From Methylocystis sp. B8 (GTDB taxonomy: Bacteria > Pseudomonadota > Alphaproteobacteria > Rhizobiales > Beijerinckiaceae), in the NCBI RefSeq assembly GCF_005771425.1, contig NZ_VBTZ01000003.1:62001-126000 (forward strand): DNA of 64,000 nt, read 5' to 3'. The position numbers and the translations under genes were made by a program. Positions 18,027 through 62,720 of the stretch are shown here, one piece after another (positions within the stretch are counted from its first letter, which is position 1; each line of letters starts with the position of its first letter). The notes beneath the pieces are model-generated. The model had not been told where the DNA came from and did no database searches. It saw only the letters and a program-made list of their open reading frames with translations.

Positions 18027-19039
18027 AAGGCCGGACCATTGCGCTGATCGGCGGCGCAGGTTTCATTGGCCACAATCTAGCGCTGGCGCTGAAGCAGTAC
18101 GGCGCTGAACCACACGTTATCGACGGGCTGCAGGTCAACAATCTAGGCGCATTTACAAATTCTGGGAACGATCCCAACAAGACTCTCTACGTCAATTTCA
18201 TTTTCGAGCGCATGAAATTGCTGCGCGAGGCCGGCATTCCGCTGCACGTGTTGGATGCGCGCGACTACCATGCGCTGTCGCGATGCCTCTCCGAAATCAA
18301 GGCCGACTGCTACGTCCAACTCGCGGCGATCGCCCACGCCAATCGCTCGAACAAAGATCCGTACAGCACGTTCGACCACTCATTCCGGACTTTGGAGAAT
18401 GCGCTCGACACCGCGCGCGACCAGGACGTCCATTTCATCTATTTTTCGTCGTCGATGGTGTACGGCAATTTCGATGGCGAGGCGGCCGTCGAGGAACGCC
18501 ATTGTGAACCGATGGGCATTTATGGCGCGTTGAAATACGGCGGCGAGAAGCTGGTGATCGCGCACAACCAGGTGTTCAAGACTCCTTACACTATCGTCCG
18601 TCCGTCGGCGCTTTATGGCGAGCGCTGCGTGAGCCGGCGCGTCGGGCAGGCGTTCATCGAGAACGCTTTGCGGGGTATGCGTCTCACCGTAAACGGCGAC
18701 GGCAACGATGCGCTCGATTTCACCTATATCGACGATCTGGTTCAGGGCGTGCTGCGTACGATTGCGCTTCCGGAGGCGAGGAACCAGACGTTCAACTTGA
18801 CGTATGGCAGCGCCCGGATGCTTAACCAGATGATCGAGCTGATGAAACAGGCGTTTCCCAATATCGAAGTGGTGCACAATCCGCGGGACGGTCTGATGCC
18901 GGATCGAGGAACGCTGTCGGTCGACAAGGCAAAACGTCTGATCGGCTACGAGCCGCAGTATCCACTGGAGAAAGGCTTTCCGCGCTACATCGCGTGGTAC
19001 AAGCAGATGGCGGCCGAACATCCGGACCATTTCGGCTGA
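18008..19039 (+). CDS. Extended SDR, NAD-dependent epimerase/dehydratase
   Basis: A nucleotide-sugar-modifying extended short-chain dehydrogenase. The NAD-binding glycine motif is IGGAGFIGHNLALAL (about 14-28); the catalytic Ser-Tyr-Lys is in IYFSSSMVYG (about 143-152) and YGALK (Tyr172, Lys176). RPSALYGERC and DFTYIDDLVQGV are typical of 4-epimerases and 4,6-dehydratases. Start GTG 18008 overlaps the aminotransferase end by 19 bp. It could be the 4,6-dehydratase (LegB-like) or epimerase step of the amino-sugar pathway; sequence alone does not decide. Confidence 0.85.
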   Translation: MFQDKLKGRTIALIGGAGFIGHNLALALKQYGAEPHVIDGLQVNNLGAFTNSGNDPNKTLYVNFIFERMKLLREAGIPLHVLDARDYHALSRCLSEIKADCYVQLAAIAHANRSNKDPYSTFDHSFRTLENALDTARDQDVHFIYFSSSMVYGNFDGEAAVEERHCEPMGIYGALKYGGEKLVIAHNQVFKTPYTIVRPSALYGERCVSRRVGQAFIENALRGMRLTVNGDGNDALDFTYIDDLVQGVLRTIALPEARNQTFNLTYGSARMLNQMIELMKQAFPNIEVVHNPRDGLMPDRGTLSVDKAKRLIGYEPQYPLEKGFPRYIAWYKQMAAEHPDHFG

Positions 19040-19048
19040 GCTTTCGCC

Positions 19049-19810
19049 TTGCGCGTTGAAAAGGACAATTGGCTATCTGATGCCCTGGGCGTCTCGAGCT
19101 GGAAAGCACTCGGCATGACGACAGCCGTGTCGCCCGCTGAAATTCAAGCGGGTTTGTTCGATCGCGCCGGACAGGGCGCCGCCTTTTTCTCTACAAGAAT
19201 TCCGACTCGGGACGTGGTTGTTGTGACGAATGCTACGCGGGCCGGCTTCTCCGTGGTCGATGTCAATGTGACGTTCGATTGGGAGAATCGCGCGACCTGT
19301 GCCTCTGGGATTGATAAGAACCGCAACAGCATTGTGAAAATTGAAATAGCCAACGCAGGCGACGCGGCGGCGATTGAGGCGATCGCCAGTCATTGCTTCA
19401 CATTCTCAAGGTTCCACCTTGACCCCGCCATCGGTCTGGATCGGGCAAATGAGGTCAAGCGTCAGTGGGCGCGCAATGCGTGCCGGGGACGCGCCAGCGT
19501 CGTTTACGTCGTACGACAGCAAAACGCCGTCACCGGTTTTTTGGCCGTGCTCGAAAACAAGTCTAGCAGAGGAACGGACGCGATCATTGATCTGGTCGGG
19601 GTCGACGCTGCCCATCAGGGCCGGGGTGCCGGCCAGGCGCTCGGCAGAATGTTCGTTGATCAGTGGCGCGACCGAGCAGTCCGGCTTCGCGTCGGCACGC
19701 AGATTTCCAACATTCCGGCGATGCGGCTTTATGAAGCGATCGGCTTCCGAGTGGCCGAAACGTCATACGTCCTGCATGCCCATGTCAAAAATGGAGCGAT
19801 TGCGGCATGA
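19049..19810 (+). CDS. GNAT N-acetyltransferase
   Basis: An acetyl-CoA-dependent N-acyltransferase. The C-terminal GNAT domain (about residues 98-245) has VGVDAAHQGRGAGQALGRMF, with the acetyl-CoA pyrophosphate loop QGRGAG at about 190, followed by IPAMRLYEAIGFRVAETSY, typical of WecD/SpsD-like sugar acetyltransferases. The first 95 residues (FDRAGQGAAFFSTRIPTR…) resemble the N-terminal half of dTDP-fucosamine acetyltransferases. Start TTG 19049 is the earliest candidate, 9 bp after the previous stop; a later start cannot be excluded. The stop overlaps the NeuB-like start by 4 bp. It probably acetylates the amino group installed by the upstream DegT enzyme. Confidence 0.8.
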   Translation: MRVEKDNWLSDALGVSSWKALGMTTAVSPAEIQAGLFDRAGQGAAFFSTRIPTRDVVVVTNATRAGFSVVDVNVTFDWENRATCASGIDKNRNSIVKIEIANAGDAAAIEAIASHCFTFSRFHLDPAIGLDRANEVKRQWARNACRGRASVVYVVRQQNAVTGFLAVLENKSSRGTDAIIDLVGVDAAHQGRGAGQALGRMFVDQWRDRAVRLRVGTQISNIPAMRLYEAIGFRVAETSYVLHAHVKNGAIAA

Positions 19811-20820
19811 AGATCGGTTCCTTCGACCTTGCCGAACGGCCGTTCTTGATTGCCGAGATCGGAAACAATCACGAAGGCAATCCTGAGCTTGCCCTGAAGT
19901 TGGTCGACGCGGCGGTCGACGCGGGCGCGGATGCCGTCAAGGTGCAATTGATCAACCCCTTAAGGCTCGTCAACAGGTCGGAACAGCAGCGCATCGCGCA
20001 ATTGTCTCGGTTCAGGCTGGAGCGCGAAGTGTTTCTGGAAATGGCGCGGCGGGTGCGGGGGCGCGGTGGGCTGTTCATGGCGTCCGCCTTCGATTGCGAC
20101 ACGCTTCAGGAGTGGGTCGGCGATCTCGACGCCATCAAGATTGCGTCTGGTGACCTCGACTTCGATCCGATGCTGAAGTTGGCGGCAAATAGCGGCAAGC
20201 CTGTGGTGCTGTCGACGGGGATGTCGACACTACCTGAAATTGAGCGCGCAATCGGCGTGTTTTCCACGGCATTACCTGCGGGCGTTGCCGCGGAAGACTG
20301 CCTCGCGGTGCTGCATTGCGTGAGCCTCTATCCGACGCCGCTTACGCAAGCAAACCTGTCCGGCATTTCGGAATTGCGAGCCCGATTGGGCGTGACGATT
20401 GGTTATTCCGACCACACGCTCGGCGTGACCGCCGCAACAATTGCGCTCGGGCTCGGCGCCCGTGTAATCGAAAAGCATTTCACCCTGGACAAGGCTTATT
20501 CCGAGTTCCGCGATCATGCCTTGTCGGCGGAACCAGAAGAGTTTTCGGTACTTGCTCAGACGGTCCGTTGCTATTCGGATATTCTGGGGCGCGGCTTCAC
20601 CGGCGGCGAACTGGCCGACGCTGCGACGCGTGCGGTCGCACGGCGCAGTATCGTGGCCGTTCGCGACATCCCCATGGGAGCCACGATCACCGCGGTCGAC
20701 CTCGACTATGTTCGCCCAGCGATTGGCTTTCCGCCATCGGCTGCAGAACATGTGATCGGCCGGCAAGCGCGCAAGCGGCTTGCGATTCATGAAGTGATCC
20801 GCGAGGAGGACCTCGCGTGA
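19807..20820 (+). CDS. NeuB-family nonulosonate synthase
   Basis: Condenses phosphoenolpyruvate with a six-carbon N-acyl sugar to make a nine-carbon nonulosonic acid. The TIM-barrel NeuB domain starts PFLIAEIGNNHEGNPELALKL-like at about residues 12-32 and has DAVKVQ, AIKIASGDL, PVVLSTGMST, LHCVSLYPTP, IGYSDHTLG (about 198-206) and VIEKHFTLD, all core NeuB/LegI/PseI motifs. The C-terminal SAF/antifreeze-like domain starts RRSIVAVRDIPMG (about 279). Length 337 is normal. Whether the product is legionaminate, pseudaminate or another acid cannot be told. No NeuC/LegG-type hydrolysing 2-epimerase or PseG hydrolase is in the window. Translationally coupled to the GNAT gene. Confidence 0.9.
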   Translation: MKIGSFDLAERPFLIAEIGNNHEGNPELALKLVDAAVDAGADAVKVQLINPLRLVNRSEQQRIAQLSRFRLEREVFLEMARRVRGRGGLFMASAFDCDTLQEWVGDLDAIKIASGDLDFDPMLKLAANSGKPVVLSTGMSTLPEIERAIGVFSTALPAGVAAEDCLAVLHCVSLYPTPLTQANLSGISELRARLGVTIGYSDHTLGVTAATIALGLGARVIEKHFTLDKAYSEFRDHALSAEPEEFSVLAQTVRCYSDILGRGFTGGELADAATRAVARRSIVAVRDIPMGATITAVDLDYVRPAIGFPPSAAEHVIGRQARKRLAIHEVIREEDLA

Positions 20821-25055: not shown

Positions 25056-25973
25056 ATGAGTGCCGCCGACAGAGATTCAGTCGAACGCAGTATCAAGCAC
25101 TGCTATTCGACCTGGGGAACCTCGTACTACGCGGACTACTATGGTGCTGATGCGCCGTATCCTCCCGTTCATCTCGACCTCGTCAGTCGACTTGTCGCCG
25201 AACGCGACGTCAAGCGCCTTCTGGATGCCGGATGCGGTCCTGCTTCGATGCTTCGGCACCTAGTCGCGCCAGGCCGGGATATTTATGGTTTCGATCTCAC
25301 GCCGGAAATGGTCGTGGAAGCGCGCCGCGTTCTTGCTGAACAGGGCGTGCCGGCGGACCATGTCTGGGAAGGCAGTGTAGCGGTTCGTGCCGACTTCGTC
25401 GCCCCGACCGGCAATGCAGACTACGACTGCGTTCTTTGCAGTGGCGTGATGCCGCATATCGCTGAAACGACCGAGACGGATATCATCGCAAATATCCGTG
25501 ATGCCCTGCAACCCGGCGGCCATGCTATCGTTGAGGCGCGCAACGAGCTGTTTTCGATGTTTACGCTCAACCGCTATTCGCATGAGTTTTTTCTCAAACA
25601 GCTTCTCCCGGTCGACGAACTTCGTAGGCAGGCTGGCGACGAGGGGGATGGCATGAACGCTGCGCTGGCGCAGGTGGAACGCATGTTCCGGACGGACGTT
25701 CCACCGATCAGGCAGGGGAAGGACGACGAGCCCGGCTACGACGAGGTTCTGTCGCGGACCCACAACCCGCTTCTGCTGCAACAGAAGTTTCTGGCCACCG
25801 GCTTTACGAACGTGCAGCTCTATTATTACCATTTCCACTGTCTTCCACCGGTGGTGAGCGGACATGCGCCGCGGCTTTTCCGGGAAATCAGCCTGCAGAT
25901 GGAAGCCAATCCGAAGGACTGGCGGGGCCTGTTCATGGCCTCGGCGTTCTTCGTCGTCGCGCAGCGAGCCTGA
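25056..25973 (+). CDS. Class I SAM-dependent methyltransferase
   Basis: 305 residues. AdoMet-binding LLDAGCGPASMLRHL lies at about 55-69, GFDLTPEMV follows, and motif II DYDCVLCSGVMPHI is at about 123-136; GGHAIVEARNELFSMFTLNR then corresponds to the post-I strand. The C-terminal 130 residues are an extra substrate-binding region (NRYSHEFFLKQLLPV, SRTHNPLLLQQKFLATGF). Two starts compete: ATG 25038, overlapping the previous stop, and ATG 25056, preceded by ACAGGG; the second is preferred. Substrate unknown; neighbours suggest a sugar or acyl precursor. Confidence 0.82.
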   Translation: MSAADRDSVERSIKHCYSTWGTSYYADYYGADAPYPPVHLDLVSRLVAERDVKRLLDAGCGPASMLRHLVAPGRDIYGFDLTPEMVVEARRVLAEQGVPADHVWEGSVAVRADFVAPTGNADYDCVLCSGVMPHIAETTETDIIANIRDALQPGGHAIVEARNELFSMFTLNRYSHEFFLKQLLPVDELRRQAGDEGDGMNAALAQVERMFRTDVPPIRQGKDDEPGYDEVLSRTHNPLLLQQKFLATGFTNVQLYYYHFHCLPPVVSGHAPRLFREISLQMEANPKDWRGLFMASAFFVVAQRA

Positions 25974-25977
25974 TCCG

Positions 25978-26691
25978 GTGACTTCGGTCACGACTGTTTC
26001 GCAGGACGGATGGGACCGTTTCTCGATTTGGGGGCACAGCGCAATTGTGCGTGAGCTCTACACGCGCAGATGCCGACGCGAAGTCGAGGAGATGACGGCG
26101 CATGCCCAGGCGGCCGAGATGCTTTCGCGTCGGATCGGTGCTGGCGACAGCGTTCTCGATGTCGGTTGTGGCAGCGGCTATTTCTATCATTCGCTCGCCG
26201 CACGGAACTTGCCCGCCGAATATTGGGGGATTGATGTCTGTGGTGCGCTGATCGATATCGGCCGCGATATCCTGCCGGGCTTCGGCTTGCCGGCGGACCG
26301 GCTAATCGAAGCGCGGATCGAAGATCTGAGCGGCGAGGTCGACCACGTGGTCTGCCTTAACGTTCTCACCAATCTCGATAACTATCATCGGCCGCTCGAG
26401 CGCTTCCTCAAGATTGCGCGAAAGAGTGTCATCCTGCGCGAATCACTCAAGCAGGGTGCGGAATATCACTATGTGCGGGATGATTTTCTGGATCCCGGGA
26501 TCGATCTCAAGGTTCACGTCAACCACTATGACATCAGCGACGTCACGCAGTTCGTCGCGTCATATGGTTTCAAGCCCGAGATCGTCGTGGATCGACGAAG
26601 CGGCGGCCAGCCGGAACTTGTGATCGGCTATCCGCACTATTGGACATTTTTGGTGGCGGATCGCGTGGCGGCCGACCGGATGACGAACTGA
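25978..26691 (+). CDS. Class I SAM-dependent methyltransferase (small)
   Basis: 237 residues, UbiE/Methyltransf_11 type. SVLDVGCGSGYFYHSL lies at about 59-74 and WGIDVCGALIDIG after it; motif II VDHVVCLNVLTNLDNY is at about 121-136. Start GTG 25978 (VTSVTTVSQDGW…) is chosen because it lies 4 bp after the previous stop; the longer frame from 25864 lies inside the preceding gene in another frame and its extra residues are not protein-like. HVNHYDISDVTQF near the C-terminus has a His-rich pattern that might contact substrate. Third methyltransferase in a row; ends 1 bp before the AsnB-like gene. Confidence 0.82.
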   Translation: MTSVTTVSQDGWDRFSIWGHSAIVRELYTRRCRREVEEMTAHAQAAEMLSRRIGAGDSVLDVGCGSGYFYHSLAARNLPAEYWGIDVCGALIDIGRDILPGFGLPADRLIEARIEDLSGEVDHVVCLNVLTNLDNYHRPLERFLKIARKSVILRESLKQGAEYHYVRDDFLDPGIDLKVHVNHYDISDVTQFVASYGFKPEIVVDRRSGGQPELVIGYPHYWTFLVADRVAADRMTN

Positions 26692-26692
26692 C

Positions 26693-28549
26693 ATGTCAAG
26701 AATTGCTGGGTTTCTCTGTGGACACTCGAACCCCCAGTCTGAGTTGTTCGCCGCTGGAATGGCGCGGCTGATGGCGACCGGCAATGCCAATTCGTGCAGC
26801 TTCTCGCAGGGGTCCTTTGCGGTTGCCGGCGCCGGGGTGCCCGCGATAGCGCAGGACAGCGGGTGTGTCGCGGTCGTCGATGGCGTCTTTTACAACGCCT
26901 CCGAACTCGCGGCCGGTGCCGGATACGGTCCGGCCCACCAGCTAATTGCAACGTATCAACAGGTCGGATTCGCTGATGCCTTGAGGGGCATCAATGGCGA
27001 TTTCGCAGTGGCCTTGTTCGACGAGCAGACCGACACGCTCTGGCTGGGCCGTGACCGGATTGGCGTGAGGCCGCTCTATTACCATGCGCAGGCCGACGCA
27101 TTCGCGTTTGCATCCCAGCCTCAGGCGCTTCGCTCGCTTCCGGGTGTATCGCGGCATGTCAATCGACGCTATGTCGCCGTGTTCGCCGGGAGTCACTATC
27201 GATATATCGACAACGCTCCGGATGAAACGCCTTTTGCGGATATCAGGCAGCTGCCGGCCGCCTCCTACCTGCAGCTGAAGGGACAGATGCTTCTGGTCCG
27301 CAGCTACTGGTCTCTTGGGGAACAGCCGGAGTGGACCGAGAACGAAGCCGTGTTGGCGGAACGGTGTCGTGAACTTCTGTTCGATGCAGTCGCAAGCCGA
27401 CTGAAAGCTGCACGCAAACCTGTCTTTACGCTCTCAGGGGGCATGGACAGCTCGTCGGTGCTGGCATGTGCCGTTCAACTGACGGGGGAACGTCAGGAAG
27501 CCGTTTCATCGGTTTACGCGGACAAGACATATGACGAGAGCGACGACATCCGTGGTTTCGTGGCCGAGAAGGTTCGGCGATGGCAACCGATACCGATCGA
27601 TGGGTTCGATCTGTTCGACGTCGTGCGCCAAATGGTGCGCGCCCATGACGAACCGGTCGCTACGGCAACCTGGCTGTCGCATTTTCTGTTGACGAAATCA
27701 ATCGCGGAGCAGGGCTACGATGTTGTCTTCGGCGGCCTCGGTGGCGACGAGCTGAATGCCGGCGAGTACGAATACTTCGTCTTCAATTTTGCAGATCTGA
27801 GACACCGCGGGCTTCACGCTGATTTCGAGCATGAAATCGCAACCTGGGCGAAGCACCATGATCATCCGATCTATCGGAAGCATCGCGATGCGGCGATGGC
27901 GCATTTGGGACGGCTCGCCGGGGATGCGGCGGGGGAGGTTCTGGTCGATCGCGAGCGTCTGAGCCGTTACTATCCGGCCGTAAAAACGGCCTATCACGAT
28001 TTGCGGAACTTCCAACCCATTCTTGATCATCCGTTTTCGAGCTGGCTGAAGAACCGGACCTATCAGGATATCTTTCGCGAAACGGCGCCATGCTGCCTCC
28101 GTGCCGAGGACCGTAACTGCGAAGCCGCCGGGCTCGGTCATGCCGATCCGTTCTTCGACTACAGGCTGGTGGAGTTCATGTTCCGCGTACCGGGAGCGAT
28201 GAAAATTCGCGACGGCGTGACCAAGCGGCTGTTGCGTGAGGCAATGAAGGGGATTTTGCCCGAGGAGACGCGGACCCGTATCAAGAAGACCGGCTGGAAT
28301 GCGCCTGCGCACATTTGGTTCAATGGACCGGCGGTGGAACAGCTTCTCGACCTGGTACACTCTCGGGTCTTTCGGGAGCGGGGGATCTATGATGCGGCGG
28401 AGGTCATTCGTCTGATTGAGGAGCATCGGTCGATCGTCAGCGACAGTGTAGCTCAGGATAATCACATGATGTTCCTGTGGCAGCTCCTTAATGTCGAGCT
28501 GTGGTTCCAGGAAGTGGTGGACCGCGTACCGGAGTTGGTTGCCGCATGA
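26693..28549 (+). CDS. Asparagine-synthetase-like enzyme lacking the glutaminase Cys
   Basis: Full-length (618 aa) class II amidotransferase architecture, but the N-terminus reads [10 protein letters not shown]: the catalytic Cys2 of MCGIAG is replaced by Ser and the Gly3 by Arg. The rest of the glutaminase fold is kept ([26 protein letters not shown]), so the domain is probably structural. The synthetase domain is complete: [13 protein letters not shown] (SGGMDS 248-253), [17 protein letters not shown] and [13 protein letters not shown]. Beta-lactam synthetase and carbapenam synthetase show the same loss and use an internal amine instead of ammonia. Here it sits at the head of an acyl-assembly-like gene set, so it may form an amide or lactam on a glycan substituent. 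Start ATG 26693 is 1 bp after the previous gene. Confidence 0.85.
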
Positions 28550-29916
28550 ATGCCGGCGTGAACGCTCCGCTCAAATCGGGACCCACGGGTGGTAACCTGA
28601 CTTTCCCGAAGCTGGGTTTGCCGGAACTCGATGCCGCCACGCACGAGGAGATGTATCAATGGGCTTCCGATCTCTTTCCGGTCTGCCGCAGCCTTACTGG
28701 TGATGGCGTAAGAAGCACCCTCAAGTATCTGCAGGGTATCGTTCCCGGAATTGTCTCGCACGAGGTGCCGACCGGCACGCGCTGTTTCGACTGGGAAATT
28801 CCCCAGGAATGGAACATCCGGGACGCCTATATTATCGGTCCCGACGGTGACAAGATCGTCGATTTCAAGAACAGCAATCTCCATGTGGTAGGCTATTCGC
28901 TTCCGACCGATCAAGTGCTGACCCTGGATGAATTGCAGCAACACCTTTATTCGTCCGAAGATCAACCTGACGCCATTCCCTATGTCACGTCCTACTACAC
29001 ACCCAGATGGGGTTTCTGTCTTCCTCACCATATCCGGCAAGGCCTGAGGCCCGGTTCATACCGCGCTGTGATTGATTCATCTCTGAAAGAGGGGGCGCTG
29101 ACCTATGGTGACTTTGTCCTGAAGGGACAGAGTCCCGACGAGATTCTTTTGTCGACATATGTTTGCCATCCATCGATGGCGAACAATGAGGTGTCAGGAC
29201 CAGTCGTATTGGCGGCGCTTGCGCGCTGGCTGTCGTCGCTGCCGGAACGGCGGTACACATATCGCTTCGTGTGGGTGCCCGAGACGCTAGGAGCGATCGC
29301 TTATCTGTCCAGAAACATCGACGTGATGAAGGAGAATACCCGCGCCGGCTACGTGGTAACGTGCGTCGGCGACGATAGGGTCTATTCTTTCCTGCCATCG
29401 CGCTTTGGGAACACATTGGCTGATCGCGCGGCCCGCCACGTGATGGGCGGATCGCAACCAGGATACCTGGAATATAGTTTTTTGGATCGGGGTAGCGACG
29501 AACGGCAATATTGCGCGCCCGGCGTCGATTTGCCCATCGCCTCGATAATGCGTTCAAAGTACGGGACCTATCCGGAATATCACACGTCGCTCGATGATTT
29601 ATCGCTGATCTCGGCGAAGGGGCTCGGCGGTGCGTACGAGATCTATCGTCAGGCCTTGACGCTTCTCGAGCATAACTTTCGCTACCGCAACACAATCCTG
29701 TGTGAGCCGCGACTCGGAATTCGAAATTTGTATCCTGACCTGCAACGCAAAGAGATTTCCGATGACGTCGTGCCGATCTTGAATCTGCTGGCATACGCTG
29801 ACGGTGATCGAGACTTGATCGGCCTTTGCGATATCGCCCGGGTCTCGTTTCGACGAGCGATCCCGCTCCTACAAGCGCTAAATCGAGAAAGCCTCGTCGA
29901 ATGCGTGAAGGAATGA
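28546..29916 (+). CDS. DUF4910 aminopeptidase-like protein
   Basis: A DUF4910/peptidase M28-like protein found in polysaccharide loci, function not established. The N-terminal region has [18 protein letters not shown] (about 36-53), the diagnostic start of the family. Zinc-peptidase-like positions: ISTYVCHP-type segment [17 protein letters not shown] (His about 208), [10 protein letters not shown] (Glu about 246) and YHTSLDDL (His about 346). The bridging Asp of active M28 enzymes (AND in many relatives) reads ANN here, so metal binding may be altered. Start ATG 28546 is chosen for its 4-bp overlap with the previous gene. Coupled by 4 bp to the aldolase-like gene after it. Confidence 0.78.
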
Positions 29917-30995
29917 AAGAGCGTCTTCGTCTTCTCGACACGACACTCCGCGACGGGAGTTACGTGATAAACTTCCAGTTTACCGCACGCGATACGGCCG
30001 TCATCGCCGCACAACTCGAAGCGGCGGGCTTCGAGCTGATCGAAATTGGGCATGGCGTTGGCCTTGGGGCGTCCGAACGCAATTACGGACGGGCCGCGGA
30101 GACGGATGAGTCGTATATGGCCGCAGCTGCAGAGGCCGTGAAGCGCGCCATGTGGGGAATGTTCAGTATCCCTGGGATCTCGACGCTCGAAGACATAGAT
30201 ATGGCCGCCGACTATGGAATGAAGTTTCTGCGTGTCGGCACTAACGTTGCGGACGTTCCCGACTCCCAGCCTTTTATTGAGCGTGCGAAGAAGCACGGCA
30301 TGTTCGTCTGCGCCAACTACATGAAATCGTACGTGGCAGCGCCGAAGGAGTTTGCGCGTAACGCGCAGCTTTCCCAACAATACGGTGCCGATGCGGTCTA
30401 TATCGTCGATTCCGCTGGCGGAATGCTGACTCGAGATATGGAATCATATTTTCACGCGGTTCAGGATGTTTGTGATGTCTCGATCGGGTTCCATGGGCAT
30501 GATAACTTAGGACTGGGGGTCGCCAACGCTGTGCGCGCAGCGGAACTTGGGGCAGCGATCGTCGATACGTCCCTTCAAGGAATGGGTCGCAGTGCAGGCA
30601 ATACGCCCACCGAACAGTTTATTGCCGTAATGGAGCGATCCGGCGTTCCGATGGGCTTCGATCCGCTCCGGGTAATGGATATTGGCGAAAAATACATCAA
30701 GCCTTTGATCCGATATGATGGACTGAATTCGCTCGATATCGTGTCGGGCTACGCACAATTTCATTCCAGCTATATGGGTGTCATCAGGGAGTACTCCAGC
30801 AAGTTCGGCGTCGATCCTCGCAAGCTGATCATCGCATTGTGTGAGCGCGACCGGGTGAATGCGCCTCGCGCGCTGGTCGAGGAGTTGGCCCGAACCTTGA
30901 GTGCCGAGCCGGACGATACGTTCTCGGCTCGCTTTCACCTTGATCGGTATTACGGTGCCGAACAGAACCCTGATCCGCCAAGATCAGCCTCATGA
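29913..30995 (+). CDS. HMGL/DmpG-type aldolase or acyl-condensing enzyme
   Basis: A TIM-barrel enzyme of the HMG-CoA lyase / 4-hydroxy-2-oxovalerate aldolase / 2-isopropylmalate synthase superfamily. [16 protein letters not shown] (about 6-21) carries the catalytic Arg-Asp pair of [19 protein letters not shown] (about 163-176) and [16 protein letters not shown] (about 192-207) carry the metal-binding His-x-His; [19 protein letters not shown] (about 217-235) is the Gly-rich region. The C-terminal part is DmpG-like rather than LeuA-like. It could cleave or join a short oxo-acid to build a branched acyl unit. Start ATG 29913, with GAAGGA upstream and 4-bp overlap with the DUF4910 gene; the frame from 29826 is spurious. 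The next gene is an AMP ligase, again with 4-bp overlap. Confidence 0.85.
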
Positions 30996-32554
30996 CGAAC
31001 TGGTCCAAGCGGTTCACGCGTATCTTTGGCGAAAACGCCGAGCGTACGTTTTTTATCGACGCGATCGATGGGGGGCAGACGTCGTACGGGGAACTCGCCC
31101 GCAACGCCGCTGCGCTCGCGCAGCAGCTCGAGAGCCGGCGGTTGCGTGCCGGGGACCGAATTGGAATCCATCTTCCGAATGGTTCTTTGTTCGCCACCTT
31201 CTACTTTGCGTGTCTCCTGGGCGGCTTTACCGCTGTTCCCGTCAACAACGCCTTGTCTTTGAAGGATCGCGCGTTTGTACTGGGTCGGTCGCGCTTGTCC
31301 GCGATTGTCACCGGCTTCGGCATGAAGGATGTCGGGGATCTCCTGCCGTCTCGTGAACAGGAAGGATCCGACGGGCCGCCTGTGCTGACGATTTCGAAAG
31401 GTGACCCTCGCGCCGATCTGGTGTTGAGCGCGGCCGCCGACACCGACGTCGATGGAAGACTGGCGGAGATCGACAACGACAGGCTGCTTTCGATCCACTT
31501 TACATCGGGCACCACGAGCCTACCCAAGGGCGTGGCGCACCGGGCCGGAGGACTTCTGGACAATGCTTCCTCGTTCAATCGGGCGTTCGGCCTCGGCCGA
31601 GACAACAGATTCGTGCACGTCATGCCGATGCCCTATATGGCCGGTTTTCTGAATACGCTGCTTGGTGCGTTCACGGCGGAAGCGTCGATCATCCTTGCCC
31701 CGCAGTTTGGGCCCCAAAGCGCGCTTCGATTCTGGGATCCGGTTGCGGCGCATGGCGGAGACACCATTTGGATGTCGCCGACAATGCTTGCGACGTTGAC
31801 GCGGGTTGATCGTGGGCGTGTCGGAGTCGACATCTGTCAAACCCGGCGTATGCGAATCTTCAGTGCGACAGCTCCGCTCGCTCGCAAAATCCAGCAGGAA
31901 TTCGAGGAAAAGTACGGGGTAAATGTTGTAGAAAGCTACGGCCTGTCCGAGCTCCTCTTGATCACAGCCAATGACGGACCGGCCGGATCGAAAATGTTTT
32001 CCGTTGGAACGAAGTTGCCCGAAGTCCGGATCGAGATTCGTGGCGATGAGGGACAGCTGCTGGCCGCCGGAACGGATGGGGCGATCTTCGTCAATACGCC
32101 CTACGCCACGGTCGGCTATATCGATTTTGAGACGGGCTTCCCAATCTCGCCCTCAGACCAATGGTTCGACACTGGCGATGTCGGCCATGTCGATACCGAT
32201 GGCTATCTGTTCGTGACGGGGCGGGTGAAGGATTTGATTATACGTGGTGGCTTCAATATCAGCCCGAGGCAGATCGAGGAGGTGCTTCTGCAACATCCGG
32301 CGATTGATGATGTCGCGGTTGTCGGTGTTCCCCACGAATTCTACGGCGAACAGATCGTCGCGGTGGTCATTCCGGCAGCTGGAAGCCACATTGAGGATAT
32401 CCAGGCGGGTCTGCGCGAGCATTGTCTGTTGGCGTTGGGAAAATCTGCGCTGCCCGACCTATTCATCGCGCTCGATGCCTTCCCGGTCACGAATCTTGGA
32501 AAAATCCAGAAAAATAGAGTTCGGGAAATGATTGTTGAAAGGATGCCTGCGTGA
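30992..32554 (+). CDS. AMP-dependent acyl-CoA/ACP synthetase
   Basis: An adenylate-forming enzyme (ANL superfamily), 520 residues: activates a carboxylic acid with ATP, then transfers it to CoA or a carrier protein. A3 motif HFTSGTTSLPKGVAHR (about 169-184), A5 VESYGLSELL (about 312-321), A7/A8 WFDTGDVGHVDTDGYLFVTGR (split: TGDVGHVD, then FVTGRVKDLIIRGGFNIS, about 391-425) and A10 NLGKIQKNRVR with the catalytic Lys (about 504). Specificity residues cannot be read with confidence. Because an acyl carrier protein lies 2.8 kb downstream in the same operon, loading of that protein with an acid made by the aldolase/AsnB-like enzymes is a reasonable inference. Overlaps neighbours by 4 bp on both sides. 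Confidence 0.9.
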   Translation: MTNWSKRFTRIFGENAERTFFIDAIDGGQTSYGELARNAAALAQQLESRRLRAGDRIGIHLPNGSLFATFYFACLLGGFTAVPVNNALSLKDRAFVLGRSRLSAIVTGFGMKDVGDLLPSREQEGSDGPPVLTISKGDPRADLVLSAAADTDVDGRLAEIDNDRLLSIHFTSGTTSLPKGVAHRAGGLLDNASSFNRAFGLGRDNRFVHVMPMPYMAGFLNTLLGAFTAEASIILAPQFGPQSALRFWDPVAAHGGDTIWMSPTMLATLTRVDRGRVGVDICQTRRMRIFSATAPLARKIQQEFEEKYGVNVVESYGLSELLLITANDGPAGSKMFSVGTKLPEVRIEIRGDEGQLLAAGTDGAIFVNTPYATVGYIDFETGFPISPSDQWFDTGDVGHVDTDGYLFVTGRVKDLIIRGGFNISPRQIEEVLLQHPAIDDVAVVGVPHEFYGEQIVAVVIPAAGSHIEDIQAGLREHCLLALGKSALPDLFIALDAFPVTNLGKIQKNRVREMIVERMPA

Positions 32555-33795
32555 CGTCGGAAGCGGGAAAATCTCTGCCCAATCGCGCCATTGGCCTCCG
32601 GGTGCGCAATTGCGAAAGCTGCCACGGTAACGACCTGGAACAACTCTGGCGTCAGTCCTTCACGGCGCGAACGCGATTGGGTCAATACAGATTCGACGTC
32701 AATAACGTGATCTGCAGGAATTGCGGTTTTGTATTCGTGTCTCCAGTGTTCGATGAAGCGGACCTCGCCGATTATTATGCAGGGTCGTTCAGCGCATTCG
32801 CCGGCGCCGCGCCCGACTATGACGTCGCAAAGCGGTTGGCGTTTCTCGACAACGTGGTTCCCAGGGGCGATTTATTTATCGAAGTGGGCGCAAACCGGCC
32901 GACAGAGTTTCACCGGCGCTTGAAGGAGATCTACGGCAAGGTGACGACCGTTGAGATCAACGACAGCGTGAGTTCCGATCATCGGTCGTTGGCGACGATA
33001 CCAGATGCAGGCGCCGATGTCGTGGCTCACTACTTTGTTCTGGAGCACATCCCTCAGGTCATGAAGTTCCTGAAGGAATGCGCAAGGATGCTGCGGGATG
33101 GAGGCATGATGATATGCGAGGTCCCGGATATTTTGATGTATCCGCAGGATCCTTCGGCCCTTCAGCTCTATGAGCATACGAATCATTTTTCCCGGGAAGC
33201 TTTGCGTGAACTTGCTGAACAGGTGGGCTTCGTGGAGATTTCGGTCAGCGCAGAATACTGCAGCCGTTCCTTCGGATTTGCCGCGGCCTTCAGAAAATCG
33301 GTCCCTCATGATGCGCGTGTGTCACAAGCTACGGGTCAATATCGAAGGAATCGCGAATTGTTTCTGGGCGGTGTCAGAAATCTCGAGCGGTCCGAGGCGG
33401 AAATGGACCACTCATACAAGACATTCCAAACGTACCAGGATCGGGGATCAAGCGTCGTCCTTTGGGCCGCGAACGATTTGATGGCTAGGTTTCTGGGCAG
33501 ATGTTCCTGCCTCGATAACGCGACCATTGTCGATTCCAATCCGGAGAAGGCGAGCGTGTTCAGCCCGCTGATGGTGTTCACGCCGGACGCGGCTGCCGAC
33601 CAAATCAGATGCGCGAAGGCTATCTTCATTTTTACCAACTTCCACGCAGCTGATATTCTGCGGCAAATCGAAGGCTCGCTGGGGAAGACGTTTGATAAAG
33701 GGGCGGTGCATGTCGTTGATCCCTCAAGCGACGGATCGAGGGGCTTTGTTGATCGTCCGAGCTTGCGAGACGGGCTTGGTGAGACCCGCGCATGA
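32551..33795 (+). CDS. C-methyltransferase-like protein with zinc site (Methyltransf_13/14 type)
   Basis: 414 residues with the three-part layout of sugar C-methyltransferases such as TylCIII/NovU: an N-terminal zinc-binding module (CESCHG about 21-26 and CRNCGFVFVSP about 51-61), a central AdoMet domain (LFIEVGANRPTEF about 108-120; VVAHYFVLEHIPQVM about 153-167; MMICEVPDI) and a C-terminal domain (VVLWAANDLMARFLG about 305-319, like GAGxKxxTLLN of the family). The glycine-rich AdoMet loop is unusual (VGANRP rather than GxGxG). The likely reaction is C-methylation of a keto sugar or an acyl intermediate. Start GTG 32551 overlaps the AMP-ligase stop by 4 bp. Confidence 0.82.
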   Translation: MTSEAGKSLPNRAIGLRVRNCESCHGNDLEQLWRQSFTARTRLGQYRFDVNNVICRNCGFVFVSPVFDEADLADYYAGSFSAFAGAAPDYDVAKRLAFLDNVVPRGDLFIEVGANRPTEFHRRLKEIYGKVTTVEINDSVSSDHRSLATIPDAGADVVAHYFVLEHIPQVMKFLKECARMLRDGGMMICEVPDILMYPQDPSALQLYEHTNHFSREALRELAEQVGFVEISVSAEYCSRSFGFAAAFRKSVPHDARVSQATGQYRRNRELFLGGVRNLERSEAEMDHSYKTFQTYQDRGSSVVLWAANDLMARFLGRCSCLDNATIVDSNPEKASVFSPLMVFTPDAAADQIRCAKAIFIFTNFHAADILRQIEGSLGKTFDKGAVHVVDPSSDGSRGFVDRPSLRDGLGETRA

Positions 33796-34586
33796 TCTTG
33801 GGGGCAAGTCACATCACGCTTGGCTGTGACAATTTGGATGCTGCGGCTACGAGCCTGGAGGACTATGGCTATCGTCCCGAGTTCATTGATCGCAACGTAA
33901 TCAACAACCCTTCGAAACAGTCGATTCTGGCAGCCCATTGCGAGGTCCATGGGATCGGGCTGTTGCGCGCCGACGGCGGTTTTCCGATTGAGCTGGTATC
34001 TTATCGGAATCAAATGCCCGATGGTTTCGGGCGCTACGTCGGCGTATTCGAAACCGCGGGGGTGCCCCGGCGTGTGGACAATATCGATTTCAGCGCGTCG
34101 CTGTCCGGCATGCCGTCCGACGCGGTTTCAGCGTGGGCCACGGGCACCATCGGGGATTTGAGCGCTCCGGCATTCTTTGTTAGGGGCGCACGGACAAATG
34201 CCGGACTGCGGCAGGTAGTCCTGCCGGTCAGCGATCTCAAATGCTCGCGGCGCCTGTGGTGTGACGTGCTTGGCTTCGGCTTGGTCAGCGAAACCAGCGC
34301 AATGGCGGAGCTTCGGTTTGTTTCGCCGGTAGCGGCTTGGCGCCTTGAGCTCGTTCTGGTCGCCTCGCCACCGCCCAAAGCGCGATCGGTGCTCGACGCC
34401 AAGGGCATGGCTTGTCTTTCGCTCCTGTCTTCGAATATCGCCGACGATGTCCCGCGCGTGATTGGCGGCGGGGCAAGGCTTCTCACCGATATTTTCGCCA
34501 TAACGATCAACGGCCGGAATATGAAGGTCGCGATCCTCGCCGATATGGACGGCGCCTTCGTCGAGCTGCTTCAGGTCGGCCGTTAA
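33792..34586 (+). CDS. VOC-superfamily (glyoxalase-like) protein
   Basis: 264 residues with two tandem beta-alpha-beta-beta-beta repeats. The first starts ILGASHITLGCDNLDAAA (about 2-19); the second starts AGLRQVVLPVSDLKCSRRLW (about 137-156) followed by CDVLGFGLV. This is the paired-domain form of glyoxalases, epimerases and extradiol dioxygenases. Metal ligands would be His7 (ASHITL) and a late Glu (GAFVELLQV, about 259); one or more others are not obvious, so catalysis is uncertain. Such proteins in biosynthetic loci epimerise or isomerise acyl intermediates (methylmalonyl-CoA epimerase relatives). Overlaps the methyltransferase by 4 bp; a 75-bp gap to the next start is among the larger ones in the operon. 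Confidence 0.75.
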   Translation: MILGASHITLGCDNLDAAATSLEDYGYRPEFIDRNVINNPSKQSILAAHCEVHGIGLLRADGGFPIELVSYRNQMPDGFGRYVGVFETAGVPRRVDNIDFSASLSGMPSDAVSAWATGTIGDLSAPAFFVRGARTNAGLRQVVLPVSDLKCSRRLWCDVLGFGLVSETSAMAELRFVSPVAAWRLELVLVASPPPKARSVLDAKGMACLSLLSSNIADDVPRVIGGGARLLTDIFAITINGRNMKVAILADMDGAFVELLQVGR

Positions 34587-34662
34587 GGAAGCCACAGCCG
34601 AAAGTTCGAATCCTCTCGAGCTTCAAACGTGGTTGAAGACAACTTTAAATGGGGATGCTGAT

Positions 34663-35331
34663 GTGAAACGAATTGTCGATTTATCCTACCTCCTGCACGA
34701 TGGCATGGCGACTTATCCGGTCCAGTGGTCGCCTCCGTTCGGGATTACGCAGCTCGGCCGCCATGGTATTGAGGGCCGCGAATCCCGCAAGATAGTGATG
34801 GGAACCCACACGGGCACCCATGTCGATGCGCCGCGTCATTTCATACCCGGCGGTGCGACGATCGATCAGCTGCCGCTCGAACCGTTCGTCGGGCCGGCCA
34901 CGGTTGTCGATTTTACATTCGCAAAACCTCTGCAGGAGATCGAGGTTTCCGATTTTGAAAAGCAGCTGGGAAGCCGGCGCATCGAGCGCTTGATTATGCG
35001 TTTCGACTGGTCTGATCATTGGGGCAGCCTGAAATTCTATTCCGAACAACCCTATATCTCAGACGCAGCGGCCCGTTGGATCGTCGATCATGGCGTGAAG
35101 CTATTAGGAATGGACACGCCCCAGGCTGACAGCCCCAAGAACGGGCGTGGCGCGGAGCGAGATTCGCCAGTCCACAAGATCCTGCTGGCGGCCGGCATTA
35201 TAAAACTGGAATACATGACGAACCTTCGCGAACTCGGTTCGAACGAATTCGAACTGATCGCACTGCCTCTCAAGATCCGCGAGGCCGATGGGGCGCCGGT
35301 ACGCTGCGTCGGGATCGTAGACAATCAATAA
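34663..35331 (+). CDS. Cyclase-family (kynurenine-formamidase-like) hydrolase
   Basis: A metal-dependent hydrolase of the Cyclase family. RIVDLSYLLHDGMATYP lies at the N-terminus; the metal signature HTGTHVDAPRHF (about residues 49-60) has the three ligands HxGTHxDxPxH. GMDTPQADS (about 148-156) and the C-terminal LPLKI are typical. Family members open or close amide/lactone bonds on small acids (kynurenine formamidase, isatin hydrolase, some polyketide cyclases). Start GTG 34663 is preferred: GGGGA lies about 8 bp upstream and homologues begin just before IVDLS; TTG 34633 is the longer alternative. It precedes the acyl carrier protein gene by 14 bp. Confidence 0.82.
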   Translation: MKRIVDLSYLLHDGMATYPVQWSPPFGITQLGRHGIEGRESRKIVMGTHTGTHVDAPRHFIPGGATIDQLPLEPFVGPATVVDFTFAKPLQEIEVSDFEKQLGSRRIERLIMRFDWSDHWGSLKFYSEQPYISDAAARWIVDHGVKLLGMDTPQADSPKNGRGAERDSPVHKILLAAGIIKLEYMTNLRELGSNEFELIALPLKIREADGAPVRCVGIVDNQ

Positions 35332-35345
35332 GGTTGAACGCAACA

Positions 35346-35603
35346 ATGAAGCACGAACAGCTTGTGCGCGAGTTCTTCGCACGGAATGCCGCTTCCTCGC
35401 TACCTGAAGGCCAGGACGGGCTTGATGTGTATTATCTGGACGCCGGCCTGATCGACTCGTTCGGAATTGTCACAATGATTTCCGATTTCGAGAGCGCATT
35501 GGGTATCACGTTTACTGCAGAAGACATGCAGTCGTACGAGTTTCAGACGGTCGGGGGACTGATCGGTATCCTTGATCGCCTCGCGGCTTCTTCCGCAGCA
35601 TGA
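35346..35603 (+). CDS. Acyl carrier protein
   Basis: 85 residues, a phosphopantetheine-binding carrier protein. The attachment site is AGLIDSFGIVTMI with Ser38 in the family motif D-S; the helices before and after (EQLVREFFAR; ISDFESALGITFTAEDMQ) match the four-helix ACP fold, with an acidic helix II/III as needed for partner binding. Start ATG 35346; the in-frame TTG 35334 is less likely. A stand-alone ACP inside a glycan operon, beside an AMP ligase and an N-acyltransferase-like gene, points to a carrier-bound acyl or aminoacyl intermediate destined for the sugar. Overlaps the following methyltransferase by 4 bp. Confidence 0.88.
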   Translation: MKHEQLVREFFARNAASSLPEGQDGLDVYYLDAGLIDSFGIVTMISDFESALGITFTAEDMQSYEFQTVGGLIGILDRLAASSAA

Positions 35604-36766
35604 CGATCGTTCCGAAAGACGTGATCTTCCTGTCGGAGTCGACGGAGAGTTGTGCGGATCGCTGGGTTGCGATGAATGTGTTTGCGCGAACATCTGTGGG
35701 GCTGAGCAGTGAGGTTTTCGAGCTTTTGGGCAGGATTGCGAACGACCCGGAGGCCGGAGGCGAAGGGCCGTTTCATTGCTGGCGCATCGAATATTTTTCG
35801 AATGAAGCGGGGTTACTCGCTGATCCAAGCCGTTTTCGCCGAAATGTCGACGAGTGGGAGGAGTTGTGCCTGACCCGAGCGGAATTGATCGCGGAACTGA
35901 AAACGCATTGCATCCTTGTTGATGACGAAACGGCTTATCGCAAGCGGTTCAAGCCGAAACGGAATCTGCTCGATCGCGAGCATTTCGGCAACTTCCATCA
36001 GCAGCACGGCCAGCATATGGCGCTGGCAAGACGGAAAGATCCGACCGACTGGTGGATGCGGCAGAAGTTTACGGAAGATCAGCTGTCGGTCCGGCCAGAT
36101 ACATTATATGGGGCTATCCAAAGCAAGTTTCTCGAAGCCTATACCGAAACGCGGATCAGTGAGGGGATGACGGTCGTCGATCTCGGCTGTGGAACCGGCG
36201 TCTATTCAAACATGATGGCCCGTCGGGGAGCGAATGTCCTCGGTATTGATCCCAGCGAGGAATATCTCAACGTCGCGAGGGCGAATGCGGTCCCGGGCAC
36301 GCGCTTTGAGAACATGAAAATCGGCGAAGTAGGAGCTCTCGACAAAATACCGGCCTCGTCTGCGGATATGATCTTCATGAGCGACGCTTTGTTGTTCTAT
36401 TTCGTGCCGTTCTATCCGGGCCAGAACGCGGATATTCATACCTTGCTGAAAGACATCAGGCGTATTTTAAAGCCCGGCGGTTTGTTCGTCAGCATGGAAC
36501 CGCATGGCGTTTTCTACCTGATGCCGTGGCTGGGCGCGGTCGACCGGCCGTTCGTTGTCGTCACTGAATATCTTAACAAGTCGTTCGGAATCGTGCCGCC
36601 GCTGTCGTGGCTGATTCAGCAGGTGACTCGGACGGGATTCGCCGTAACTGACATGCGGGAGATCGTGCCGGGGGACTATTTTGAGAAGATCGATCCCCGA
36701 GGCTATCACTTCGCCAGCGAGTTTCCGCTGTGGCACCTGATCGAATTCAGACCATTTAGCTCCTGA
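35600..36766 (+). CDS. Class I SAM-dependent methyltransferase with N-terminal extension
   Basis: 388 residues. The AdoMet domain is in the second half: MTVVDLGCGTGVYSNMM (about 191-207), GIDPSEEYL, then ADMIFMSDALLFYF (about 255-268) and LKPGGLFVSMEPHG. The first 180 residues carry IFLSESTESCADRW, VFELLGRI and the charged stretch RKRFKPKRNLLDREHFGN, of a kind seen in proteins coupled to carrier-bound substrates, but I do not recognise a defined domain. Location directly after the ACP gene (4-bp overlap) suggests an ACP-bound or related substrate; not proven. Confidence 0.82.
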   Translation: MTIVPKDVIFLSESTESCADRWVAMNVFARTSVGLSSEVFELLGRIANDPEAGGEGPFHCWRIEYFSNEAGLLADPSRFRRNVDEWEELCLTRAELIAELKTHCILVDDETAYRKRFKPKRNLLDREHFGNFHQQHGQHMALARRKDPTDWWMRQKFTEDQLSVRPDTLYGAIQSKFLEAYTETRISEGMTVVDLGCGTGVYSNMMARRGANVLGIDPSEEYLNVARANAVPGTRFENMKIGEVGALDKIPASSADMIFMSDALLFYFVPFYPGQNADIHTLLKDIRRILKPGGLFVSMEPHGVFYLMPWLGAVDRPFVVVTEYLNKSFGIVPPLSWLIQQVTRTGFAVTDMREIVPGDYFEKIDPRGYHFASEFPLWHLIEFRPFSS

Positions 36767-36767
36767 C

Positions 36768-37616
36768 ATGAATCATCATTACACGCGGGACGATCTATTG
36801 CGAGCGATCGAAGGCGTGGGAATTCGCCCGGGCGATACTGTGTCTCTGCAGGTAAGCCTCGGGCGCCTCGGGATGCCCTTCGGCGTTGAACCGAACTATC
36901 CGGCGCTTTCAAATTTCATGATCGATTCTTTTTTGGAGGTGTTGGGTCCTCAAGGGACTCTCGTCGTGCCCACCTACACCTATTCGATCGGGCGCGGGAC
37001 GGTGTTCGAAGTCGAAACAACGCCATCGTCGATCGGGCAGTTTCCTGAAGTGTTCCGCAGCCGGCAGGGTGTCGTGCGATCGCGCGACCCGATGATGTCA
37101 TCGGCGGCCATCGGGCCACGAGCGGCCGCAGTGCTGCGGAACATTTCGCGGTCGTGCTATGGCGAGGGAAGCACCTTTCAACGGTTGCGCGAGGTCAATG
37201 CGCACATCTGCACGCTCGGCATTAGCCTCTATTGGGCAACGTTTCGACATCATATCGAGGAAGTCGCCGGCGTGCCATTTCGCTTCCCCAAGTCCTTCAC
37301 CGGAATCGTTCGCGAAAACGGAAGGGAGTCGCGAGAAACCTGGTCTTACTTCGCTGCTCCGATTGTCGATAACTGCCAGCCGAACGGATTGCCTCTGGAG
37401 CGCCGCGCACGCGACACGGGATTGGTAAGAATAACGCCGGTCGGCCGTGGCGAGATCATGGCCATCGATGCCGGGAAATATTTCGAATTCGGCCTGAACG
37501 AACTGCGGACCAATCCGTGGCTGACCGCAAAGGGTCCTCCTGCTGCGGCCGAGGTGATCTTCAAGGATGAGCCGCAATGGTGGGCGGCGCGATCCGCGAA
37601 TGGACCTCTGACTTGA
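36768..37616 (+). CDS. AAC(3)-family N-acyltransferase
   Basis: 282 residues, Antibiotic_NAT (aminoglycoside 3-N-acetyltransferase) fold. GIRPGDTVSLQVSLGRLG (about 17-34), GTLVVPTYTYSIGRG (about 62-76), RSRDPMMSSAAIGPRA (about 103-118) and GISLYWATFRHHIEE (about 149-163) correspond to the family core, where His and Asp/Glu residues act on an amino group. In LPS loci this family transfers acyl groups from CoA or ACP to amino sugars; resistance is not implied. It is the natural candidate for transferring the acyl unit built upstream. It starts 1 bp after the previous gene and overlaps the next by 4 bp. Confidence 0.82.
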   Translation: MNHHYTRDDLLRAIEGVGIRPGDTVSLQVSLGRLGMPFGVEPNYPALSNFMIDSFLEVLGPQGTLVVPTYTYSIGRGTVFEVETTPSSIGQFPEVFRSRQGVVRSRDPMMSSAAIGPRAAAVLRNISRSCYGEGSTFQRLREVNAHICTLGISLYWATFRHHIEEVAGVPFRFPKSFTGIVRENGRESRETWSYFAAPIVDNCQPNGLPLERRARDTGLVRITPVGRGEIMAIDAGKYFEFGLNELRTNPWLTAKGPPAAAEVIFKDEPQWWAARSANGPLT

Positions 37617-39358: not shown

Positions 39359-39374
39359 AGTGCCAGGTTACCAG

Positions 39375-40613: not shown

Positions 40614-40627
40614 GGGGAGATATCTTG

Positions 40628-42980: not shown

Positions 42981-42982
42981 TC

Positions 42983-62240: not shown

Positions 62241-62329
62241 CCCCCCGGCGCCTTTGCGCTGCGTCGATCGATGCTCTCCGAGCGCCGCACAGCGCCGCGA
62301 CGCTCGGACACATGCAACGCAGACCGATC

Positions 62330-62648
62330 ACCAGACGGCGGCGGGCGGGGCTTAAAAGTTTCCCTTGGCAGCCTCTGAAGGATCAACTTGCCGAGCGTCA
62401 GATCGGAAACCGCCCTGCGAAACCGGGCGTTGTCTTGCTCAAAGTCCCTCAGTCGTTTGAGTTGGTCACCCTTCAATCCGCCGTATTCTTGCTGCCACCG
62501 GTAGTAGGTCACTCTCGGTCACGCCAATCTGACGAACGGCGTCGGCAACGTTCTGCCCTTGCGAAAGCAGGAAATCGACTTGCCGCAACTTCGCGACGAT
62601 CTCTTCCGGCTTGTGGATTTTCCTCGGGATTTTGGCCCTCCTCGTCAT
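62330..62648 (-). pseudogene. IS3-family OrfA, frameshifted
   Basis: MTRRAKIPRKIHKPEEIV, AKLRQVDFLLSQGQNVADAV and RQIGVTE are followed, after a one-base shift near 62512, by TYYRWQQEYGGLKGDQL, KRLRDFEQDNARFRRAV and SDLTLGKLIL. The HTH and leucine-zipper halves are complete but in different frames. Start at ATG 62648. Confidence 0.75.
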
Positions 62649-62720
62649 TTCAAAAGATATACATCAGGTCGGACCACTCCCTGGGGGCCAGTCAGTGCCG
62701 CGCCGCCAACGACCGGCGCG

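Follow-up and report, generated by a model that had tools for sequence, protein, structure and literature searches.

In a 64,000-nucleotide stretch of Methylocystis sp. B8 (contig NZ_VBTZ01000003.1, positions 62,001 to 126,000; hereafter the window), ten adjoining genes at 26693-37616 include a core that probably constitutes a conserved module for making a short acid and attaching it by N-acylation to a nonulosonic acid of a surface glycan. The evidence lies in the co-occurrence and order of the core genes across genomes, in their protein families, in a swapped active-site pair of the aldolase, in a fusion of the AAC(3)-type and DUF4910 proteins, and in an association with NeuB. The first-pass annotation of this DNA had named ten genes here; all are indeed present, contiguous and on the plus strand, with neighbours overlapping or separated by gaps of at most 46 bases, and their names are backed by Pfam and NCBIfam matches. 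According to the open reading frame (ORF) annotation of the window, the block sits inside a long plus-strand run of polysaccharide genes, and it comprises:

26693..28549, plus strand: AsnB-like synthetase without the Cys2 glutaminase nucleophile (PF00733), local accessory
28546..29916, plus strand: DUF4910/DUF2172/HTH_47 metallopeptidase-like protein, predicted N-deacylase or transacylase (PF16254, 337.9 bits), core
29901..30995, plus strand: DmpG-like (HMGL) aldolase of a distinct clade, with Tyr20/His287 (PF00682, TIGR03217; ATG at 29901), core
30992..32554, plus strand: adenosine monophosphate (AMP)-forming acyl ligase, predicted ligase to the acyl carrier protein (ACP) (PF00501 and PF13193), core
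32551..33795, plus strand: C-methyltransferase-like protein (PF13489), accessory
33792..34586, plus strand: two-domain VOC protein of glyoxalase/epimerase type (PF00903), core
34633..35331, plus strand: cyclase/kynurenine-formamidase-like metal hydrolase (PF04199), core
35346..35603 (ATG) or from TTG 35334, plus strand: ACP (PF00550), core
35600..36766, plus strand: S-adenosylmethionine methyltransferase with an N-terminal extension, recurrent neighbour of the ACP, accessory
36768..37616, plus strand: AAC(3)-type (Antibiotic_NAT) N-acyltransferase (PF02522), core

A survey of 199 genomes of the family, the genome of origin included, with the aldolase at an expect value (E) of 1e-40 recovered DmpG-type relatives at 19 places in 14 other genomes, with 32 to 37% identity. 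The ligase, searched at E 1e-60 in 385 genomes of the class, gave a single outside match (G257), the contig of which carries relatives of the aldolase (59% identity), ligase (40%), cyclase (56%) and DUF4910 protein (60%) side by side, and of the AAC(3)-type protein, ACP and VOC protein 8 to 10 kb from these. A search of 398 genomes of the phylum yielded three further aldolases of this type, and an alignment of five aldolases, used as query, retrieved 69 loci from a species-level genome collection. Among plasmids, the 30 aldolase matches listed of 350 reached at most 37.8% identity, the annotated ones being mostly dmpG, and the 15 ligase matches listed of 2614 were 30 to 34% identical. The ORFs of the loci, which were thus collected via the aldolase, were compared with the window proteins. 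The strict count covers the 47 of 68 loci with at least 6 kb downstream (full loci), L104 being excluded as canonical and L109 for the lack of an aldolase match of 50% coverage. As controls we used the neighbourhoods of 17 of the 19 canonical DmpG genes of the family, the two omitted genes being placed at a contig edge or on a 6 kb contig.

Within the 47 full loci the ligase recurs in 31, the cyclase in 32, the ACP in 23, the AAC(3)-type protein in 20, the DUF4910 protein in 18 and the VOC protein in 17, while for the nonulosonate genes the counts are 19 for NeuB, 20 for DegT and 12 for the cytidylyltransferase. Each of the six partners is found around none of the 17 canonical DmpG genes. The recurrence beside relatives of this aldolase and not beside canonical DmpG thus places the grouping beyond chance, and the gene set is not accidental. 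The co-occurrence of the AMP-forming ligase, ACP, aldolase and AAC(3) genes, as predicted by the first-pass annotation, is hence borne out. At least four of the six partners are present in 21 loci, and all six in nine.

The order recurs as well: aldolase, ligase, VOC protein, cyclase, ACP, AAC(3)-type protein and DUF4910 protein, often beside a NeuB set. All seven cassette genes follow this order in six loci, namely L050, L060 (Vibrio coralliilyticus), L061 (Micrarchaeota), L070 (the cyanobacterium Kaiparowitsia), L073 (Grimontia) and L075 (Rhizobium altiplani), and in V. coralliilyticus NeuB and the seven genes are consecutive with gaps below 30 bases. From the aldolase to the AAC(3) gene the order is kept on one strand in 19 of the 21 richer loci, the exceptions being L043 and L051, with part of the genes on the opposite strand. 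By record label these 21 loci span seven phyla (L078 by title; the doubtful L041 not counted). The block is conserved, with largely the same gene order, between bacteria and archaea that are only distantly related.

The aldolase itself is unusual. It scores 288.4 with TIGR03217, just above the equivalog cut-off of 286, and 25.2 with the communication domain DmpG_comm, below the cut-off of 27; the solved structures nearest to it are DmpG-type. Across 63 aligned rows (the window and 62 of the 69 loci, DmpG numbering by alignment), the position of DmpG His21 is occupied by Tyr in 61 rows (Tyr20 in the window) and that of Tyr291 by His in 62 (His287 in the window). The sole His/Tyr row is L104, grouping with the canonical enzymes, and the L109 sequence is cut. 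All 19 canonical controls retain His/Tyr, with the swap in none, and they form one side of a branch with a support of 100/99. In DmpG the active-site His acts as base. From the residues we read the aldolase as a distinct DmpG-like subfamily that may use another acceptor or another stereochemistry. Where complete, the aldolase of the acidobacterial loci L090-L092, L094-L099 and L109 ends in a C-terminal extension of another kind; in these loci it often lies ahead of a ligase, a cyclase and an ACP that has the motif LTS in place of IDS.

At the sugar end, the AAC(3)-type protein carries H161 and E164 in all 17 rows; it matches the superfamily PF02522, yet stays below the NCBIfam AAC_3 resistance equivalog (77.7 vs 270). 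In L052 it is fused to DUF4910 in a single protein, and AAC(3)-type ORFs extend into a DUF2172 portion, clearly in L050 and weakly, below cut-off, in L055. The window DUF4910 protein displays the combined DUF4910, DUF2172 and HTH_47 architecture and has a solved relative, 3k9t (E 3e-105). For this protein, CA_C2195 of Clostridium acetobutylicum, a role in modified carbohydrate synthesis was proposed in 2014 (PMC4000134). A glutaminyl-cyclase role was set aside, the M28 catalytic residues being reported as replaced (PMC4000134). Of the zinc site (His189/Asp195/His324), two matching His are present in 24 of 24 rows, as placed by motif and spacing rather than by residue alignment to 3k9t. Within the 21 richer loci the DUF4910 gene comes last in 11, first in three and on the opposite strand in three, and is not counted in four.

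A Cj1295 mutant of Campylobacter jejuni loses the N5 2,3-di-O-methylglyceroyl group that replaces N5-acetyl on pseudaminic acid, and Cj1295 was proposed to cleave the acetamido group, with a C. acetobutylicum homologue in its family (PMC3068675). By way of this shared homologue, Cj1295 would carry DUF4910. In the first-pass annotation the DUF4910 protein came early in a reading by gene order; the L052 fusion and the Cj1295 genetics place it better at the sugar end, as partner of the AAC(3)-type enzyme. Together with the association with NeuB, they favour de-acylation and re-acylation of a nonulosonic acid.

A NeuB match is found in 16 of 16 cassette genomes (15 of the 21 richer loci and L079; L041, L043, L046, L051, L057 and L106 left out), compared to 85 of 200 phylum-sampled genomes, the own one included. 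The window locus holds a DUF4910-type protein, an N-acyltransferase, an ACP and NeuB together, a set that presumably also defines the Campylobacter case, where an ACP and a methyltransferase lie next door to Cj1295. Around the ten genes, the window further contains:

15173..20820, plus strand: nonulosonate-type set of cytidylyltransferase, GFO/IDH, PseC-like DegT, epimerase/dehydratase, GNAT and NeuB, likely acceptor pathway
25945..26691, plus strand: methyltransferase MT3, with relatives in aldolase loci of the ATP-grasp branch described below
39360-40613, plus strand: Wzt with C-terminal Wzt_C domain, export
42944-43867, plus strand: Wzm permease, export

Along the window the nonulosonate-type set is followed by an AsnB with Cys2 and WbuX, three methyltransferases, the cassette, and finally Wzt/Wzm with glycosyltransferases. 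The acceptor is most likely a nonulosonic acid, which refines the earlier suggestion of transfer to an amino sugar; N-acyl transfer in a surface-polysaccharide locus is upheld. We regard it as rather unlikely that the same module instead serves another amino sugar, for example a 4-amino-4,6-dideoxyhexose or a 3-amino sugar. Methylated 5-oxoproline-type acyls do sit on viosamine, Quip3N and Fucp3N (PMC10609480), and NeuB lies within the locus stretch in just 19 of the 47 full loci. However, no second DegT-type sugar aminotransferase is present among the 50 window ORFs scanned besides the PseC-like one of the nonulosonate set, NeuB is present in all 16 of those cassette genomes, and Cj1295 acts on pseudaminic acid (PMC3068675).

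Several observations weigh against the proposed nonulosonic acid module. Thirteen of the 47 full loci contain the aldolase but lack all six partners, a sign that the genes also occur apart. Moreover, the loci were gathered through the aldolase, and near-copies are included (for instance four Acidobacteria, two Saprospiraceae and L041). Besides the limited presence of NeuB within the locus stretches, the window NeuB lies 9 kb upstream of the aldolase, and the window cytidylyltransferase, DegT, epimerase, GNAT and NeuB score below equivalog cut-offs. The DUF4910 gene is restricted to 18 full loci and varies in position, and Asn takes the place of the presumed zinc ligand Asp (CA_C2195 Asp195) in 19 of 24 rows, among them the window (motif HPSMANNE), which renders hydrolysis unsure. 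A pairing of DUF4910 with an acetylating GNAT was predicted, and no pattern emerged in 10 loci. Finally, the VOC relatives are just 18 to 28% identical outside L041.

Returning to the aldolase, it is unlikely that the enzyme is not a pyruvate aldolase at all, and rather performs a Claisen-type or lyase reaction to give a citramalate- or 3-hydroxy-3-methylglutarate-like dicarboxylate. Such a shift would be in line with the altered His/Tyr pair and with Leu87 of the acceptor pocket being Phe, each in 61 of 63 rows, and the HMGL family also holds synthases and lyases. In BphI, Tyr290 excludes the 4R enantiomer, and Leu87 and Leu89 line the acceptor pocket (PMC3962088). On the other hand, the protein passes TIGR03217, the closest structures are DmpG-type, and Arg16, Asp17, His197 and His199 are kept, so that the metal ligands and the Arg are conserved. 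Compared to DmpG and BphI, the family, metal ligands and Arg are hence the same, the DmpG-type relatives in the family being 32 to 37% identical, whereas the His/Tyr swap, the Leu to Phe change in the pocket and the neighbours differ, with no acetaldehyde dehydrogenase partner among the annotated window neighbours.

The VOC protein retains H7, E67 and E258 in 24 of 24 rows, and its AF2 model (predicted local distance difference test score 90.2) is matched best by Foldseek to GLOD4 (template modelling (TM) score 0.66) and plant GloI (about 0.6). Similarity to HMS/HPPD is low (TM about 0.3), with 0.59 for the dichlorohydroquinone dioxygenase 4huz and 0.57 for the putative dioxygenase 3oaj. HPPD-like oxidative decarboxylation was set aside, the best folds being GLOD4 and GloI, and the model weakly suggests an isomerase or epimerase. 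For the cyclase, each residue of the HxGTHxDAPxHF motif, which we take to be the metal motif of kynurenine formamidases, is present in 36 to 38 of 38 rows; the protein matches PF04199, though it scores 99.4 with the kynurenine formamidase model TIGR03035, below the cut-off of 223.05, weakly hinting at a lactone or amide hydrolase. The phosphopantetheine serine of the ACP, kept in 20 of 20 clustered rows, is Ser38 counted from ATG 35346 and Ser42 from TTG 35334, the number given in the first-pass annotation, Ser38, being right for the former start.

The AsnB-like protein is indeed devoid of the cysteine, residue 2 being Ser (MSRIAG) in the window and Thr (MTRLAG) in the 83% identical copy of L041, and it scores 216.6 with TIGR01536, below the cut-off of 267.1, the N-terminal Cys nucleophile being absent. 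At 50% query coverage it recurs in one of the 47 full loci (L041). The gene thus lies outside the conserved set it had been assigned to, and is a local addition. L041 itself (NZ_JTIY01000009.1, labelled Streptomyces sp. AcH 505) matches the window operon in almost the same gene order, its proteins being 59 to 93% identical, with the AsnB-like copy included, MT4 not seen and a G+C content of 0.62; it is probably an alphaproteobacterial contaminant in a Streptomyces assembly. The methyltransferase at 35600..36766 is found in seven full loci (L046, L066 and L106 among others) and the C-methyltransferase-like protein at 32551..33795 in four, the latter not being found in the near-copy L041. In L066, of the Nitrosomonadaceae, both window-type methyltransferases lie between cyclase and ACP, the C-methyltransferase-like one on the cyclase side of the other. 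The two are recurrent extras.

On this background, the linear scheme of the first-pass annotation, in which the ten genes jointly make a single branched acid containing an amide, is improbable. In its concrete form, an aldol reaction of pyruvate with pyruvate, amidation by the AsnB-like enzyme and C-methylation would lead to a 2,4-dihydroxy-3,3,4-trimethylpyroglutamate-type acyl. An acyl group of that type is listed for the Vibrio anguillarum O-antigen (PMC10609480), the AsnB-like gene, as well as three methyltransferases, is found directly upstream, and MT3 has relatives in those aldolase loci that belong to the ATP-grasp branch; nonetheless, with the AsnB-like gene in a single full locus, most relatives work without it, and the carbon logic is our own construction. 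That unrelated genes were joined by chance, or that the aldolase is a stray from aromatic degradation, is hardly credible: 14 other family genomes do have DmpG-type relatives at 32 to 37%, and genes for AAC(3)-like enzymes, for ligases and for methyltransferases are all widespread in genomes, but the six partners are absent from all 17 controls, the same order is found across phyla, and the annotated neighbours include no acetaldehyde dehydrogenase.

Activation of the acid appears in two forms. Among the full loci, 31 have the AMP-forming ligase only, 11 an ATP-grasp protein only, none both and five neither. The ATP-grasp family, judged from one scanned member, matches the L-amino-acid ligase domain LAL_C2, and the ATP-grasp loci are a second, parallel acid-attachment branch. 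In seven of the 11 (L062, L068, L081, L082, L087, L100 and L101, some with an MT3-like methyltransferase), the aldolase has a C-terminal domain, the joint profile of which matches NAD-binding Rossmann domains (best E 6.6e-5). Such a fused NAD-binding-like domain would suit reduction of a 2-oxo group. The aldolase is thus found with either of two distinct acid-activating enzymes, which speaks for it as the builder of the acid. Somewhat doubtful, but conceivable, is a more far-reaching scenario, in which a new aldolase class with the reciprocal His/Tyr swap supplies the skeleton of an undescribed family of nonulosonic N-acyl groups in bacteria and archaea. The acid would be attached by either of two interchangeable routes, one with AMP-forming ligase, ACP, AAC(3)-type and DUF4910 proteins, the other with the aldolase, often Rossmann-fused, and an ATP-grasp enzyme, and C-methylation and amidation would in this strain give a branched lactam-type acyl.

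For the preferred nonulosonic acid module, the chemical steps, the structure of the acid and the exact amine are inferred, and the likely order is the following. The aldolase would add pyruvate enolate to a carbonyl acceptor, yielding a 4-hydroxy-2-oxo acid. The VOC protein may then isomerise or epimerise next to the keto group, with the cyclase-type hydrolase opening a lactone or hydrolysing an intermediate. Methyltransferases, plus the Cys-less AsnB-like synthetase in this strain, would decorate the acid, and the ligase would activate it and load the serine of the ACP. The DUF4910 protein may remove the N-acetyl group of the sugar, or hand the amine over, upon which the AAC(3)-like enzyme would move the acyl group from ACP to this amine, and glycosyltransferases and Wzm/Wzt would export the chain. 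A pathway of acid building, carrier loading and N-acyl transfer, as put forward originally, is supported by the co-occurrence, with the AsnB-like gene falling outside the set and the DUF4910 protein moving to the sugar end.

At 20857-23834, the Cys2-bearing AsnB adjoins a WbuX-type sugar amidotransferase (327.8 bits, cut-off 203.2), a pair likely to introduce an amidino or amide group on a sugar of this glycan. For two large ORFs between cassette and Wzm (37577-39358 and 40610-41857), neither Pfam nor NCBIfam gave a match at E 0.001. Close to where the locus ends, at about 61793-62675, the DNA shares about 76% identity with an IS3 family transposase from plasmids of Methylocystis.

The first-pass annotation knew of no characterised glycan pathway with this set, and we found no described aldolase in this setting in the literature covered, but partial precedents exist, including Vibrio cholerae O1 tetronate and the neighbourhood described in PMC4000134. 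The Campylobacter jejuni Cj1295 system shares the aminopeptidase-like protein, the nonulosonic acid acceptor and an N-acetyltransferase gene that is adjacent going by its number, Cj1296/7, whereas its acyl group is a methylated glycerate; in the excerpted text an aldolase and an AMP-forming ligase were not met, without being searched as terms, and 'acyl carrier' appears nowhere in the paper (PMC3068675). In V. cholerae O1 (RfbL/WbeL, RfbK), a ligase similarly activates a short hydroxy acid, which is destined for an amino sugar, and couples it to coenzyme A or to the carrier RfbK (PMC12208996, PMC3441752); the acceptor of the tetronate is however perosamine, and a DmpG-type aldolase, VOC protein, cyclase and DUF4910 are not met in these excerpts. 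Around CA_C2195 (3k9t), SpsE/NeuB, SpsF, a glyoxalase, an ACP and an aminosugar N-acetyltransferase are shared with our locus, while the accessible main text does not contain 'aldolase' and the function is proposed only (PMC4000134). The flagellin glycosylation islands of Aeromonas and Enterobacteriaceae (ACP, ligase, LuxE, LuxC and a FabG-type reductase) likewise combine a carrier-based short acyl supply with nearby nonulosonate or flagellin-glycan genes, but their reductases are of the fatty-acid type, and 'aldolase' appears in neither main text as available (PMC7874193, PMC4875605). A Vibrio pseudaminic cluster has a methylmalonyl-CoA-epimerase-like gene, again with no mention of 'aldolase' (PMC7371886). 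Among the matches listed and the open-licence literature, no description was found of a DmpG-type aldolase in a nonulosonate N-acylation setting. Carrier-based N-acylation of surface amino sugars is thus already known, and the new part is the aldolase clade, for which no description was found.

Unusual N-acyl groups of unclear biosynthesis can occur on sialic-acid-like sugars of cell surfaces and flagella, and the conserved seven-gene order together with the aldolase signature (TLRDGSY ... FHSSY) provides a marker by which glycans with a custom-made acyl group could be flagged. The swapped active-site pair makes the aldolase of interest for mechanistic study, and the DUF4910 protein gains a concrete partner and a place in a pathway, whereby its function becomes directly testable.

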